Assembly (NCBI RefSeq): GCF_001748285.1
Contig: NZ_BDGT01000018.1
Location: 1 to 64,000, forward strand
DNA: 64,000 nt
Reading direction: 5' to 3'
DNA from: Thermogemmatispora onikobensis
Lineage (GTDB): Bacteria; Chloroflexota; Ktedonobacteria; Ktedonobacterales; Ktedonobacteraceae
The notes beneath the pieces are model-generated. The model saw only the letters and a list, made by a program, of their open reading frames with translations. It did no database searches and was not told the origin of the DNA. Below, in pieces: positions 35,218-40,378 of the stretch. Position 1 is the first letter of the stretch; every line of letters starts with the position of its first letter. Position numbers and translations under genes: made by a program.

Positions 35218-35360
35218 GGTGGCGGCCTTATGGGCTGTGGCTGGCTCAGCCGGTCCCCAGGAAGGTGGAGCAGTGCGGACTTGCCGGGCATGGGGCGGCT
35301 GAGCTGTGCAGGGTTCACATAGAGATAGTACAATAGCTTACTTCCTGTTCAGTGAAAATG

Positions 35361-35369
35361 TGCTATAAT
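35361..35369 (+). promoter_or_regulatory. extended -10 promoter of the kinase-phosphatase operon
   Basis: TGCTATAAT, a perfect TATAAT with TGn extension; no good -35 at 16-18 bases. The same TGTGCTATAAT occurs before the nuo genes. Confidence 0.6.
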
Positions 35370-35375
35370 GCGCCC

Positions 35376-35631
35376 AGCACCATGAGCAACGAGCGAGCGT
35401 TTTTCCTGGAAAACCAGGAAGCCTGAGCTGGTAGGCTGGGGGCGAGAGAAGGGTCGAGAGGGGAGCAGGGGCGAACCTGATAAAGAGGATAGCCAGTGGC
35501 AGGGGCTTGGAGACAACGGAGTGGTGGACAGGCCAGCAGAGCAGGGTCGATACGCCTTGCGTGAATGCAAGGGCAAGGGGCGACCCTTTCAAGAGAATTC
35601 TGGGCTGCATTAAGAAGCGGTGTAAGGAAAG
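35376..35631 (+). promoter_or_regulatory. long structured 5' leader of the kinase gene
   Basis: About 255 bases lie between the promoter and the kinase ATG. Three stems are visible: TTCCTGG-AAAA-CCAGGAA (35403-35420); GCCT / AGGC (35421-35436); and a two-part stem GGGTCG (35544-35549) with CGACCC (35581-35586) enclosing CCTTGC-GTGAAT-GCAAGG (35555-35572). It matches no RNA family I recognise (not SRP RNA, tmRNA, 6S or a known riboswitch core). It could be a regulatory leader or an independent small RNA. The rest of the gap from 35218 holds nothing visible. Confidence 0.4.
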
Positions 35632-37431
35632 ATGGCTAGCAATCACTCTGATCCCAGAGAAGTCGTGTCTGCCGGGAATGCAGCAACACCTTCAAGCGGG
35701 CAAGGCGAGAGCGGACCTCGGTTGCCCCCGCCGCCGGGAGCTCCGGCGGCGGTTGGGGCTGGTAGTGTGATGCCGGCGAGTGCCGGGTCAGCAGCATCGG
35801 GGGCTGGGGTGATGCGCCTCAGCCCTGGGGTCTTGCTGTCGAATGGGCGCTATAGAATTGAGCATCTGGTGGCGGCGGGCGGTATGGGAGCTGTGTATCG
35901 CGCGATCGATCTGCGCTTTGAGCGTCCCTGTGCGGTCAAAGAAATGCTGGACGATTTTCAGAGCGAGGTGGAGAGGAACCAGGCAGTCGAGTGGTTCAAA
36001 CGAGAAGCAACCCTGTTGCTTGATTTGAATCATCCCTGTATCCCGCGCGTACGCGACTTCTTTGTGGAAGAGGGGCGCCATTATCTGGTGATGGACTTCA
36101 TTGAAGGGCGCACGCTGGCCAAAGTGCTGGAGGAGGAAGGGAATGTTGTGGGGCTTAACGGTGCGCGGGGTGTCCCCGAGGCGCGCGCCAGGAGCTGGGC
36201 GCAGCAGATCTGCAACGTTCTGAGCTACCTGCATCGCCAGAATCCGCCGATTATCTTCCGTGATCTGAAGCCGTCGAACATCATGGTCACGGATCGTGAT
36301 GAGATCAAGCTCATAGACTTTGGGATTGCGCGTACCTTCCAGTCGCAGCGCCAGGCCACCATCATCATGACCATTGGCTATGCGCCTCCGGAGCAGCTGC
36401 ATGGGATGCCGGAACCGCGCAGCGACATCTATGCCCTGGGGGCGACTTTGCATCGCCTCCTGACGCATCACGATGCGGCCAACAATAGGCCGACGATCTT
36501 CTCGTTCCCTCCAGTGAGGAGCTTGCGCCCCGATGTCTCACCCGAGTTTGAGCAAGTCATCATGAAGGCGCTGGCGCCCAGCGTAGAGCAGCGCTGGTCG
36601 AACGCGGCGGAGATGGAGCGGGCGATTCTGAGTCTGCCGCCGATCAAAGTGACGCCGCCGTTGGCGAGCAGCGTGCCGCCAACAATAGCAGCTGTGCCGG
36701 CGACGCCGGGGCAGGTGGCGCTGCCAGTCGGTGGTACCACCGGCCCAGCCGGGCAATTCATTCTCACAGCGCAGGCTCAGCTGCAGGCTGGGCGAATCGA
36801 AGCTGCCTATGCTGCTGTCCAGCAGGCTTATGCCCTGGAGCCAAACAATGCCCTGGTCCATAAGATCTTTGGGCAGGTTTTTGCGCGCCGTCAGCCGCCT
36901 GATCCTCAGCGGGCGATTCAAGCGTACAACCGCTCAGTTCAGCTCAATCCCAATGATGCTGAGACGCATAAGCTGGTTGGGGATGTCTATCATTTCATCC
37001 TCATGCGCCCAGGTGATGCCAGCACAGCCTATACGCAGTCTCTGCGCCTGAATCCCAATGATTTCGAAGCCCACCAACGCCTGGCGCAGTGCTACGAGCG
37101 GCTGAATCAGTTTGAGCCTGCCTTACGGGAGTTTCAAGAAGCCCTGCGGCTCGCTCCCAAGGTTCCGAATCTGCTCGTCGCTTTGCACTATGAGATCGGC
37201 CAGCTGGCCTGGCGACTCAATCAGCTACCACTGGCTGAGCGGAGCTTTGTGCAGGTCCTGATTATCAATCCCGCGGATCATCAGACGCGCTTCCTCTTGA
37301 GCCAGGTCTATGAGCGGGAGAACAAGCTCGGCGATGCACTGCGCGAGTGCCGCTATGTCGTTGGGGCCATGCCCACCAATCAGGCGGCTCAGGCCATGTT
37401 ACAGCGCCTGCAAGCCAGGTTAGGACGATGA
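35632..37431 (+). CDS. Ser/Thr protein kinase with C-terminal TPR repeats
   Basis: Hanks-type kinase, 599 residues, no membrane helix. Residues 1-65 are Pro/Ala/Gly-rich; the kinase domain (75-335) has AAGGMGAVYRAID, the ATP-binding Lys103 in CAVKEML, the catalytic loop IIFRDLKPSN (Asp211; the usual His of HRD is Phe), and the metal-binding LIDFGIAR (Asp229), followed by GYAPPEQ. After a linker rich in Pro and Ala, residues 375-595 form about six TPRs (for example AYNRSVQLNPNDAETHKLVGDVY). The gene ends in the start region of a PP2C phosphatase gene (ATGA overlap possible), so kinase and phosphatase should be made together as opposing partners. Confidence 0.93.
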   Translation: MASNHSDPREVVSAGNAATPSSGQGESGPRLPPPPGAPAAVGAGSVMPASAGSAASGAGVMRLSPGVLLSNGRYRIEHLVAAGGMGAVYRAIDLRFERPCAVKEMLDDFQSEVERNQAVEWFKREATLLLDLNHPCIPRVRDFFVEEGRHYLVMDFIEGRTLAKVLEEEGNVVGLNGARGVPEARARSWAQQICNVLSYLHRQNPPIIFRDLKPSNIMVTDRDEIKLIDFGIARTFQSQRQATIIMTIGYAPPEQLHGMPEPRSDIYALGATLHRLLTHHDAANNRPTIFSFPPVRSLRPDVSPEFEQVIMKALAPSVEQRWSNAAEMERAILSLPPIKVTPPLASSVPPTIAAVPATPGQVALPVGGTTGPAGQFILTAQAQLQAGRIEAAYAAVQQAYALEPNNALVHKIFGQVFARRQPPDPQRAIQAYNRSVQLNPNDAETHKLVGDVYHFILMRPGDASTAYTQSLRLNPNDFEAHQRLAQCYERLNQFEPALREFQEALRLAPKVPNLLVALHYEIGQLAWRLNQLPLAERSFVQVLIINPADHQTRFLLSQVYERENKLGDALRECRYVVGAMPTNQAAQAMLQRLQARLGR

Positions 37432-37490
37432 GAGACTATTTGCTCCTTCGGCGCATTTCGTCAGCTTTGGATGTAAGGGAGAAAGTGCCG

Positions 37491-40196
37491 ATGAGTACGT
37501 ATCACCTGTGTTCCGCGGAAAGGAAAAACATCGGCCTGCTGTCAACCAGAATTGGCCTCTTGCTTGGCGCGCTTCTCATCGCCTTACAGCTCCTGTGGCC
37601 TGTTGCTGCAGTCGCTGCTCCTGGAGGTGGGAGCGTCGACGTCGGGAAAAGTCAGGTGCTTGACCTGGTGGGGGCTGCAGTCGTTCGTTTGCTGGTGACC
37701 TATACTTCTGATCATGCGAGTGGTGGTCAGCTACCTCTCACACGGACCTCAGTGGGAAGCGAGCTGTCCGATGAGCCGGCCCCGCTGAGTCCGCCTGATG
37801 TTCAGTGCACAGGCTTGGGGGTGCTTGTCAGAAGCTGGCAGCCGCGGGGAGCAAATGACCTCAACGCCTGGGTCTTAACCGACGGAGACCTGGTGAGCAG
37901 GTTGCGCCTCTGTGGAAACAGTGGCAGCCTCCCGGGCCAATTAACCTCGATTGATATTTATAGCAGCTCAACCGGGCTGGGAACCCTGTTGACTCGCATT
38001 GCTTGTGCTGGCTTACCGCTGAGCTGCTCGAATCGTGGCCCGTTGTTCCCAGAGGGTGGCAGTAGTTGCCCGATAGCACTCGATAATTGTGCTCATACTC
38101 TCGTGCTTGTTCCTTTCCATAGCGCCTATGCTCTCCCTTCTGCCGACCTGGCATCGCTCTCCTCGGGGGAGCAGACAACGACCTTTGGACTGGAGCTTAC
38201 TGACGCCAGCGGCGCCCTGCCTGCTCAGGCCAGCCAGGCGCCAAACTTTCTCACTCCCGAGCTGATTGGGGGCCAGGAGCGACCTGTAAACACCGCCACC
38301 TCGACACCTGGTGAGCCGCAGGAGGGGGGGACGCCAATCGTTAATCAGGCTGGGCAGGTCGTTGGCTTGCAGCTTCTCAGCGGCGAGGCCAGCGACGCCA
38401 GTCAAGTGCGTGCTCTCCTCAACAGCTTCAACCTGCTAGAGGCGCCCGCTAATCCGCTCCTTGCTCACTGGCGAGCTGGCATCCAGGACTATTATCGTGG
38501 CCAGTATCAGCAGGCCAAAGGGGAGTTTCAGCAAACCCTCACGCTCAGCCAAAACCAGCTGCGAGGGGCCCAGCAATTCCTCCAGCTCATCAACCAGCGT
38601 CTGCAGACTCCAACAAGTAGTCAGGCCCAGCCGCAGGGGGCAGGCAGCGAGGTCGGTTTCGCGGGGCTCCCGCTGCTTGTCTGGGGAGGCATCGTCGGCT
38701 TGCTCCTCCTGGTAGTCATTCTGCTGTTGATCACTCTCACGGTGGGGCGCGTCAAGAGGCGCAAGGAGCTGGAGCGCTTCCGCAAAGAAGAGGAAGAAGC
38801 CAAGCGCCAGGCAGATCTGGAAGCGGAGCGTCAACGGCAGCGGGTCAGAACTCTCCAGGCGCAGCCGCAGCCGCAAGCCGCAGTTCCTGCAGCGAGACCC
38901 CAACAGAGCCAGCTGGAGAGGGAAGAAAGAGCGGTGGCCTCGGCGTCGACAGCTGGAGCCGCGGCCCTGCTGCAATGTCCGCGCTGTAAGCAGCAGGTCA
39001 GTCGTGGTGTCGAATATTGCCCCTCATGTGGTGTGTTGCTCTCACCATCGACCTCGGGCCTGCGCCTCCGTGCGCTCGTGCCGCCCGAGGCTGCGGCTCC
39101 TCAGCCAGCAGCACCCATGCCGGGGACAGAGGCGCCGACCGAGAACGAGATGCCGGCGGCGGCTTTCTCGACGTCCCCTTCCCCTGCTCAATCCGCCTCG
39201 GTGACCCCGCTCAGCGATCAACCCACCTTTGTCTTGCCCCCACTCAGCGATCAACCAACGCAAGCGATCGCTGCCCCTGCCGCTTCGAGGTCAGAGGGCA
39301 AAACTCAGGTCATAAGAGGAAGACAGCGGATGAAGAGCCTTCAGCTGGTGGTTGGTCATCGCACTGATCCAGGCATTAAACGGCGCCATAAGCCGAATGA
39401 GGACAGTCTGCTGGCCATTCTTGGGGGGCGGCAACTCGGCGGTGGGCAGGTGCAGCCCTGGGGCCTCTTCGTTGTGGCTGACGGCATGGGGGGCCATGCC
39501 AATGGACAGGATGCCAGCCGCCTGGCCATTCAAACGATTGTCGACTACGTACTCCCTTCGCTCCTACGCGGGCACGAGCTGAGTAGCAATGACTACCAGC
39601 GCCTCCTGGTAGAGGGAGTGCAGTCGGCCAATCAGGCTGTTCACGAGCAGAACCAGCGCGAGCATGCCGACATGGGAACCACCATGACCACAGCTTTGAT
39701 TGTCGGCTCCGTGGCCTATGTTGCCAATGTAGGTGATAGCCGCACCTATCTCTATCGAGAGGGTGGAGGCCTCAAGAAGGTCACACAAGATCATTCGGTA
39801 GTTGCCAGCCTGGTAGAAGCAGGCATTATCAAACCAGAGGATATCTACACCCATCCGAAGCGCAATCAGATCTATCGGAGCTTAGGCGAAAAGCCAATCG
39901 TCGAGGTCGATCCTTTCCGCGAGGAGCTGCTGCCTGGCGATAAACTCTTGCTCTGCTCCGATGGTCTCTGGGATATGACTCGTGATCCCTACATTGAGTC
40001 TGTGCTGCGCAAGTCCGCTGATCCTCAACAGCTCGTTAACGATCTGGTGCAGCTCGCGCTCGATGGTGGCGGAGAGGATAACATTTCCGTCATTGTCGTC
40101 CAGCTCGTCGAAAGTACACGCGCGAAAGGCTCGACAGTCCTGCAAGTCCTTGCTCAGCCGGATCAGTTTGCTCTACCTACCTTGCCACAGAGCTGA
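37491..40196 (+). CDS. transmembrane PP2C protein phosphatase with pseudoprotease-like outer domain and zinc ribbon
   Basis: From N to C: a signal-anchor (IGLLLGALLIALQLLWPVAAVAAP); an outer domain of about 330 residues resembling a trypsin/HtrA fold, with GLGVLVRSW, WVLTDGDLV where active proteases have TNAHVV, and EGGTPIVNQAGQVVGLQ where they have GNSGGPLVN; a helical repeat; a membrane helix (LLVWGGIVGLLLLVVILLLI); a charged coiled coil; a zinc ribbon CPRCK/CPSCG; and a PP2C phosphatase with NEDSLL, VVADGMGGHANG, ANVGDSRTYLY, LLCSDGLWDM and GGEDNISVIVV, all metal ligands present. The ATG at 37491 has AGGGAG upstream; ATG 37428, overlapping the kinase stop, is the alternative. It should reverse the partner kinase in response to an outside signal (inference). 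Confidence 0.88.
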   Translation: MSTYHLCSAERKNIGLLSTRIGLLLGALLIALQLLWPVAAVAAPGGGSVDVGKSQVLDLVGAAVVRLLVTYTSDHASGGQLPLTRTSVGSELSDEPAPLSPPDVQCTGLGVLVRSWQPRGANDLNAWVLTDGDLVSRLRLCGNSGSLPGQLTSIDIYSSSTGLGTLLTRIACAGLPLSCSNRGPLFPEGGSSCPIALDNCAHTLVLVPFHSAYALPSADLASLSSGEQTTTFGLELTDASGALPAQASQAPNFLTPELIGGQERPVNTATSTPGEPQEGGTPIVNQAGQVVGLQLLSGEASDASQVRALLNSFNLLEAPANPLLAHWRAGIQDYYRGQYQQAKGEFQQTLTLSQNQLRGAQQFLQLINQRLQTPTSSQAQPQGAGSEVGFAGLPLLVWGGIVGLLLLVVILLLITLTVGRVKRRKELERFRKEEEEAKRQADLEAERQRQRVRTLQAQPQPQAAVPAARPQQSQLEREERAVASASTAGAAALLQCPRCKQQVSRGVEYCPSCGVLLSPSTSGLRLRALVPPEAAAPQPAAPMPGTEAPTENEMPAAAFSTSPSPAQSASVTPLSDQPTFVLPPLSDQPTQAIAAPAASRSEGKTQVIRGRQRMKSLQLVVGHRTDPGIKRRHKPNEDSLLAILGGRQLGGGQVQPWGLFVVADGMGGHANGQDASRLAIQTIVDYVLPSLLRGHELSSNDYQRLLVEGVQSANQAVHEQNQREHADMGTTMTTALIVGSVAYVANVGDSRTYLYREGGGLKKVTQDHSVVASLVEAGIIKPEDIYTHPKRNQIYRSLGEKPIVEVDPFREELLPGDKLLLCSDGLWDMTRDPYIESVLRKSADPQQLVNDLVQLALDGGGEDNISVIVVQLVESTRAKGSTVLQVLAQPDQFALPTLPQS

Positions 40197-40230: not shown

Positions 40231-40256
40231 GAGGCGAGCAGAGGCGAGCAGAGGCG
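40231..40256 (+). repeat. short tandem repeat GAGGCGAGCA
   Basis: Two full copies and one partial copy of a 10-base unit between the phosphatase stop and its terminator hairpin. No function evident. Confidence 0.7.
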
Positions 40257-40291
40257 CGCCAGGAGAAGCATCCTCCTGGCGCTTGCTTTTT
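40256..40291 (+). terminator. intrinsic terminator after the phosphatase gene
   Basis: Perfect 10-bp stem GCGCCAGGAG / CTCCTGGCGC (40256-40265, 40273-40282) with a seven-base loop, followed by TTGCTTTTT. It ends the kinase-phosphatase transcript and isolates the nuo operon. Confidence 0.85.
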
Positions 40292-40349: not shown

Positions 40350-40378
40350 TTGTCGCCTGTTCAACCCTGTGCTATAAT
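40350..40378 (+). promoter_or_regulatory. promoter of the nuo cluster
   Basis: TTGTCG (40350-40355), 17-base spacer, TATAAT (40373-40378) with TGC directly before it. The nuoA GTG lies 66 bases downstream of the -10. Confidence 0.65.

Follow-up and report, generated by a model that had tools for sequence, protein, structure and literature searches.

A transmembrane PP2C phosphatase with a predicted dead HtrA-fold outer domain, encoded beside a soluble Hanks-type kinase in Thermogemmatispora onikobensis

Introduction

Serine/threonine signalling in bacteria has been studied mostly through receptor kinases. Among membrane-tied proteases, DegS binds peptides and in this way detects misfolding of outer membrane proteins. 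DegS and the HtrA stress proteases share with the protein described here a membrane-tied outer domain of trypsin fold; their signal is proteolytic cleavage and they have PDZ domains, whereas here neither catalysis nor a PDZ domain is apparent and the output would be a PP2C phosphatase. The host of the present locus, Thermogemmatispora onikobensis, is a thermophilic soil bacterium of the order Ktedonobacterales.

The closest described systems resemble this locus in different respects. In PASTA kinase/Stp1-type pairs (PrkC/PrpC, Stk1/Stp1) the genes of a Hanks-type kinase and a PP2C are adjacent, as they are here (PMC6213207), but it is the kinase that acts as membrane receptor in those pairs, whereas here the phosphatase bears the outer domain. 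Similar in build is PstP of M. tuberculosis, a transmembrane PP2C whose disulfide-bearing periplasmic domain is of unknown function (PMC12421883, PMC12088040). Encoded in one operon with PknA/PknB, PstP shares with the present phosphatase a single membrane pass, a cytoplasmic catalytic domain, an outer domain with a (here likely) disulfide, and a place beside Hanks-type kinases (PMC12421883, PMC12088040, PMC6213207). The present protein and PstP, the best-known membrane PP2C, are both transmembrane phosphatases with an outer domain, albeit in reversed order: the PP2C of PstP is N-terminal and its outer domain, described as a putative PASTA, is C-terminal, whereas the outer part comes first here and is predicted to be a dead HtrA fold. 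Moreover, the PstP partner PknB is a membrane receptor, whereas the kinase here is soluble. MamO of magnetotactic bacteria resembles the outer domain, in that a trypsin-2/HtrA domain has lost catalysis and gained another role with an active relative alongside (PMC4794232); it differs in binding a transition metal, in being fused to a transporter domain and in involving no phosphatase.

The first-pass annotation of this DNA had held that bacteria usually place the receptor on the kinase and leave the phosphatase soluble. This is too broad, as PstP is transmembrane (PMC12421883, PMC12088040) and T. onikobensis itself encodes at least two more membrane PP2Cs. Two of these (L131 and L132, on contigs C2 and C7) differ in layout: L131 starts with the PP2C, followed by a helix and an outer part as in PstP, and in L132 the membrane segments are N-terminal and the PP2C is similar to that of the present phosphatase. 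Transmembrane PP2Cs (PstP) and dead HtrA domains (MamO) are already known; what would be new is that a PP2C has a dead protease for its outer domain. Our literature search returned no report of such a combination, a paper that surveys the architectures of bacterial PP2C proteins makes no mention of trypsin in its text, and nothing relevant was found in the literature on kinases or phosphatases of Thermogemmatispora or Ktedonobacter.

Results

Gene pair and upstream elements

The window, i.e. the whole stretch of 64,000 nucleotides that was analysed, carries the kinase and phosphatase genes in tandem (Table 1). Both reading frames were confirmed in the list of open reading frames at the positions first assigned to them. 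The likely start of the phosphatase is ATG 37491, given the upstream Shine-Dalgarno sequence and the MST[YH] start of the relatives' proteins, and this start sets the length of the gap after the kinase gene. The sole terminator-like site on the coding strand lies 3' of the phosphatase, and a promoter-like site for the gene that follows was found at 40350.

Two stretches are unusually conserved at the nucleotide level. The region 37340-37640, which runs from the 3' end of the kinase gene across the spacer into the codons for the phosphatase signal peptide, is 90-100% identical in four close relatives within the genus, with an apparent synonymous divergence of about 0.02-0.06 as compared to 0.3-0.6 in adjacent parts. 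It may contain an RNA or DNA element; no Rfam family matched the conserved junction. Upstream of the kinase, positions 35360-35419 show 98-100% identity among four relatives, with poor conservation on either side, and are likely the promoter or leader of the pair.

Table 1. Coordinates of the features of the kinase/phosphatase locus
Feature	Position in the window	Strand	Basis
Kinase, soluble Hanks-type Ser/Thr, 599 aa, C-terminal TPR repeats	35632..37431	+	Pfam, catalytic residues, hydropathy
Kinase domain	35854..36600	+	Pkinase match in own-genome search
Spacer, 59 bases, kinase to phosphatase	37432..37490	+	About 96-98% identity across four genus relatives; AAGGGAG before ATG 37491
Receptor-type PP2C phosphatase, 901 aa	37491..40196	+	Open reading frame; orthologues across order
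N-terminal hydrophobic segment, likely cleavable signal peptide	37491..37619	+	Hydropathy; AVAA-PG motif; high nucleotide conservation
Predicted outer dead trypsin/HtrA-fold domain	37632..38450	+	AF2 model; Foldseek HtrA1, DegS, DegP; hhalign to intact proteases
Cys106 and Cys141, pair bracketing dead His site	37806..37913	+	Of 31 sequences, all have Cys141 and at least 90% have Cys106
Catalytic His position, here Asp133 (LTDGDLV vs LTADHVV)	37887..37889	+	Joint alignment
Catalytic Asp position (probable), here Thr203	38097..38099	+	hhalign alignment; least certain of the three
Catalytic Ser position, here Gly279 (QEGGTP vs GDSGGP)	38325..38327	+	Joint alignment
TPR-like helical hairpin common to intact proteases	38451..38606	+	Model helices 275-288, 292-305, 311-324, pLDDT at least 95; hhalign
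Single membrane helix	38676..38732	+	Mean hydropathy 3.08
Zinc ribbon CPRC-X11-CPSC	38976..39029	+	Zn_ribbon_3 4.4e-5, below curated cut-off
PP2C catalytic domain	39363..40103	+	Pfam PP2C 7.3e-19; NCBIfam Stp1_PP2C_phos 2.3e-64
Terminator-like hairpin then T run, ends transcript before nuoA	40256..40282	+	

Kinase and phosphatase anatomy

Pfam assigns the kinase a Pkinase domain (3.1e-39) and matches to several TPR models, and the protein retains the catalytic residues Lys103, Asp211 (FRDLKPSN) and Asp229 (DFG). Phe replaces the His of the HRD motif, as it does in those relatives in which the motif could be located. No hydrophobic segment was detected (best 19-residue mean hydropathy 1.0), in agreement with the initial description of a Hanks-type kinase that lacks a membrane helix. 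The protein does not belong with the PASTA kinases, i.e. membrane kinases with PASTA repeats: the Pfam scan gave no PASTA match, and its score against NF033483 is 195 bits at a cut-off of 450. Within the genus the kinase domain evolves slowly (dN/dS 0.02-0.05).

Hydropathy analysis of the phosphatase revealed exactly two hydrophobic segments, the N-terminal one and the membrane helix. Together with the Pfam matches this bears out the arrangement of outer part, membrane helix, zinc ribbon and PP2C originally proposed; the exception is the N-terminal segment, described at first as an anchor, whose AVAA/PG end makes a cleavable signal peptide the likelier reading. A charged linker separates the membrane helix from the zinc ribbon, whose pattern recurs in 19 of 19 aligned phosphatases of family f1 and was not found in families f3 and f4. 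All metal-binding aspartates of the PP2C domain are present (Asp638, 664, 749, 824 and 863), and the catalytic motifs of kinase and PP2C are intact here and kept in relatives. Against the Stp1/IreP equivalog NF033484 the phosphatase scores 217.1 bits, below the curated cut-off of 230.

Fold of the outer domain

The protease assignment of the outer part had rested on two short motifs, since neither Pfam nor sequence profiles recovered a protease relative: the Pfam scan of the phosphatase found no protease, trypsin models included, and a profile search against PDB sequences gave nothing convincing for the outer domain. Comparison of predicted folds did reveal such relatives. A first model, built from an alignment of 20 phosphatase ectodomains that included no intact protease, had as its best matches among PDB chains (Foldseek) HtrA1, M. 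tuberculosis HtrA, HtrA2 and DegS. As this run provided only one good model in five (pLDDT 65 vs about 45), prediction was repeated with 31 ectodomains, stripped of signal and membrane parts and again free of intact proteases. Four of the five models now reached a pLDDT of at least 76, and the best AF2 model a pLDDT of 82.4 and a pTM of 0.84. In the PDB, Foldseek found 90 matches with E no higher than 0.001, and the best 50 of these 90 all belong to the HtrA family (HtrA/DegS/DegP). E-values for the ectodomain models were about 1e-6, and TM-scores of the better model, on the target, reached 0.65. The predicted fold is thus HtrA-like, of the trypsin-type double beta-barrel kind, rather than unrelated to trypsin. 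In the model, a short helix after strand 79-84 occupies the site of the catalytic His in trypsin folds.

Alignment of profiles provided a similar result. With hhalign, the phosphatase ectodomains match intact paralogues (see below) at 99.5% and E 2.5e-22 over 373 columns, which span the protease region, the TPR-like part and the membrane helix, a resemblance much greater than chance would give. Of the outer part, about 55 residues form a TPR-like helical hairpin instead of belonging to the protease. The Pfam scan found no PDZ domain in the phosphatase, and the hairpin stands in its place. Predicted structure and alignment together support a dead HtrA/trypsin fold for the outer domain.

Lost catalytic sites

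The TDGDLV and EGGTP motifs, proposed from the outset as the dead His and Ser sites, are placed identically by the joint alignment with intact proteases. At the Ser site the oxyanion Gly is replaced by Gln. The catalytic Ser is missing in 31 of 31 aligned phosphatase ectodomains and the His in 29; the two exceptions, L104 (TDAHLV) and L105 (TDSHVV) of the sister family f3, keep His in the absence of Ser, and are plausible intermediates of a stepwise catalytic decay. MAFFT placed a conserved DL[AP] motif of f3 and f4 at the catalytic Asp site, whereas hhalign puts it one strand later. Of the catalytic His-Asp-Ser and the GNSGGP motif that define HtrA/trypsin-2 proteases, the outer domain lacks the His, the Ser and the motif, and probably also the Asp. 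A search by conservation for an intact triad elsewhere in the domain found no invariant His or Ser in alignments of 20 and 31 rows, which argues against an alternative conserved triad.

Other positions have been gained rather than lost. Cys106 and Cys141 likely form a disulfide, judging from sequence and predicted secondary structure; the columns conserved in the intact proteases do not include them. In family f1 of the dead proteins, W[VIL]LTD and ExGxP are new segments as well. Both the cysteine pair and the segments around the two dead sites are kept across the order.

Intact paralogues and evolution of the dead domain

Profile searches identified intact homologues in the same genomes. These are secreted trypsin-like proteases with ILTADHVV and GDSGGP motifs (Pfam Trypsin_2, about 1e-15), in which the protease is followed by a TPR-like hairpin, a membrane helix and often a zinc ribbon, with no PP2C. 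An intact paralogue of matching outer layout is present in 45 of the 47 genomes of the class. The copy of T. onikobensis itself (L109, C58:19855-21066) is an intact membrane protease of HtrA-like type that carries TPR-like helices and, at its C terminus, a weak match to a zinc ribbon; no NCBIfam equivalog matched it above cut-off, and in several relatives this type of protease adjoins a fabI-like gene.

In the tree, phosphatase ectodomains and intact proteases form the two sides of one fully supported branch, the root of which is not determined. This topology is consistent with a single recruitment of the protease domain before the order diversified. One homologue outside the class, L116, is of the intact type (GNSGGP), an indication that the intact form came first. 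Comparisons within the genus give the dead domain a dN/dS of about 0.12-0.27 and the PP2C one of about 0.04. The dead domain thus evolves about four times faster than the PP2C, as expected of a sensor domain relative to enzymes; still, values clearly below 1 show that it is kept under purifying selection. The dead-protease assignment accordingly gains further backing from the intact paralogues, the half-decayed intermediates and the selection acting on the domain.

Distribution and kinase partnership

The close relatives of the phosphatase come from named Thermogemmatispora and are 75-87% identical, and orthologues were found across the order; beyond Chloroflexota, the search consisted of a single pattern scan in which the whole protein was run against the genome collection. 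The kinase gene immediately precedes that of the phosphatase, on the same strand, in nearly all loci of family f1 that were read, mostly at a gap of -88 to +62 bases, and it also adjoins the phosphatase in the f3 loci L103, L104 and L105. Family f4 phosphatases have no such kinase adjacent, and no relative of the kinase TPR tail was found in those genomes. Two further genomes (G029 and G030) encode the phosphatase without the partner kinase. Since the kinase is adjacent in nearly all f1 loci and absent in one sister family, the receptor-phosphatase appears to be the conserved core and the kinase its usual partner. In G029 (L042), hisD abuts the phosphatase and the order hisD-phosphatase-nuo is retained, a natural loss of the kinase. 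Natural loss of the PP2C, in contrast, was rejected for two broken frames (L047:8970 and L049:9895, in genomes from two different genera): within the codons for DGMGG, both lack a single base adjoining a run of G, and homopolymer assembly errors are most likely.

The T. onikobensis genome (5.6 Mb) encodes about 70 Hanks kinase domains as compared to nine PP2Cs. The phosphatase therefore probably serves more than one kinase, and the neighbouring kinase need not be its sole substrate.

Discussion

A dead-protease outer domain on the phosphatase, combined with a soluble partner kinase, suggests that this pathway senses the outside via the phosphatase rather than the kinase. We consider it probable that the pair is a two-gene phosphorylation module with the sensor on the phosphatase, in which an outside ligand alters PP2C activity. 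The cleft or surface of the dead protease would bind a ligand from outside the cell; by analogy with its HtrA relatives, a peptide or an unfolded protein is most likely, and binding would shift the arrangement or clustering of the membrane phosphatase. The signal could then pass from the TPR-like hairpin through the membrane helix to the PP2C, raising or lowering its activity on the activation loop of the neighbouring kinase and on the substrates of that kinase. The dead ectodomain could also act as a scaffold instead of a receptor.

The main rival to the receptor reading is a partnership with the intact paralogue, made through the protease or TPR-like parts, by which the phosphatase would regulate the protease or read its state. 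The equal outer layout of the two proteins and, in family f1, the zinc ribbons on the inner side of both would suit such an arrangement, and MamO offers a loose precedent as a dead HtrA relative that promotes MamE proteolysis via its C-terminal transporter domain (PMC4794232). The two genes are, however, not neighbours in the loci examined, and genomes G001, G019 and G026 have the intact protease although the searches recovered no phosphatase from them. As the intact protease is nearly universal, its co-occurrence with the phosphatase is weak evidence, and we regard the partnership as unlikely.

More doubtful still is that the outer domain is a mere anchor or stalk, which positions the PP2C at the membrane while its sequence drifts and conveys no signal. 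The loss of catalytic residues and the faster evolution of the domain would be expected in that case; likewise, L132 is tied to the membrane and has no large outer domain, and the periplasmic domain of PstP is dispensable and of unknown function (PMC12421883). Yet a stalk has no need of a folded domain of 270 residues, and drift is difficult to reconcile with a dN/dS clearly below 1 and with a fold, a cysteine pair and segments around both dead sites that are retained across the order. Finally, a protease with a rearranged active site would account for the conserved neighbours of both sites but is extremely improbable, considering that neither alignment holds an invariant Ser or His, that the oxyanion glycine is lost, and that pairing of invariant Cys141 with near-invariant Cys106 in a disulfide is the better explanation.

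Returning to the receptor reading, the identifiable fold, the living intact paralogue and the half-decayed intermediates make the notion of a bacterial phosphatase as receptor directly testable by mutation of a defined cleft. A broader proposal, which we put forward tentatively and as possible rather than probable, is that Ktedonobacterales hold a distinct class of receptor-phosphatases, in which a dead HtrA domain, kin of a membrane protease that the cell itself continues to produce, would serve as a sensor of extracellular peptides or misfolded proteins and control dephosphorylation, thereby reversing the logic of receptor kinases. The finding matters for how PP2C phosphatases may be controlled from outside the cell.
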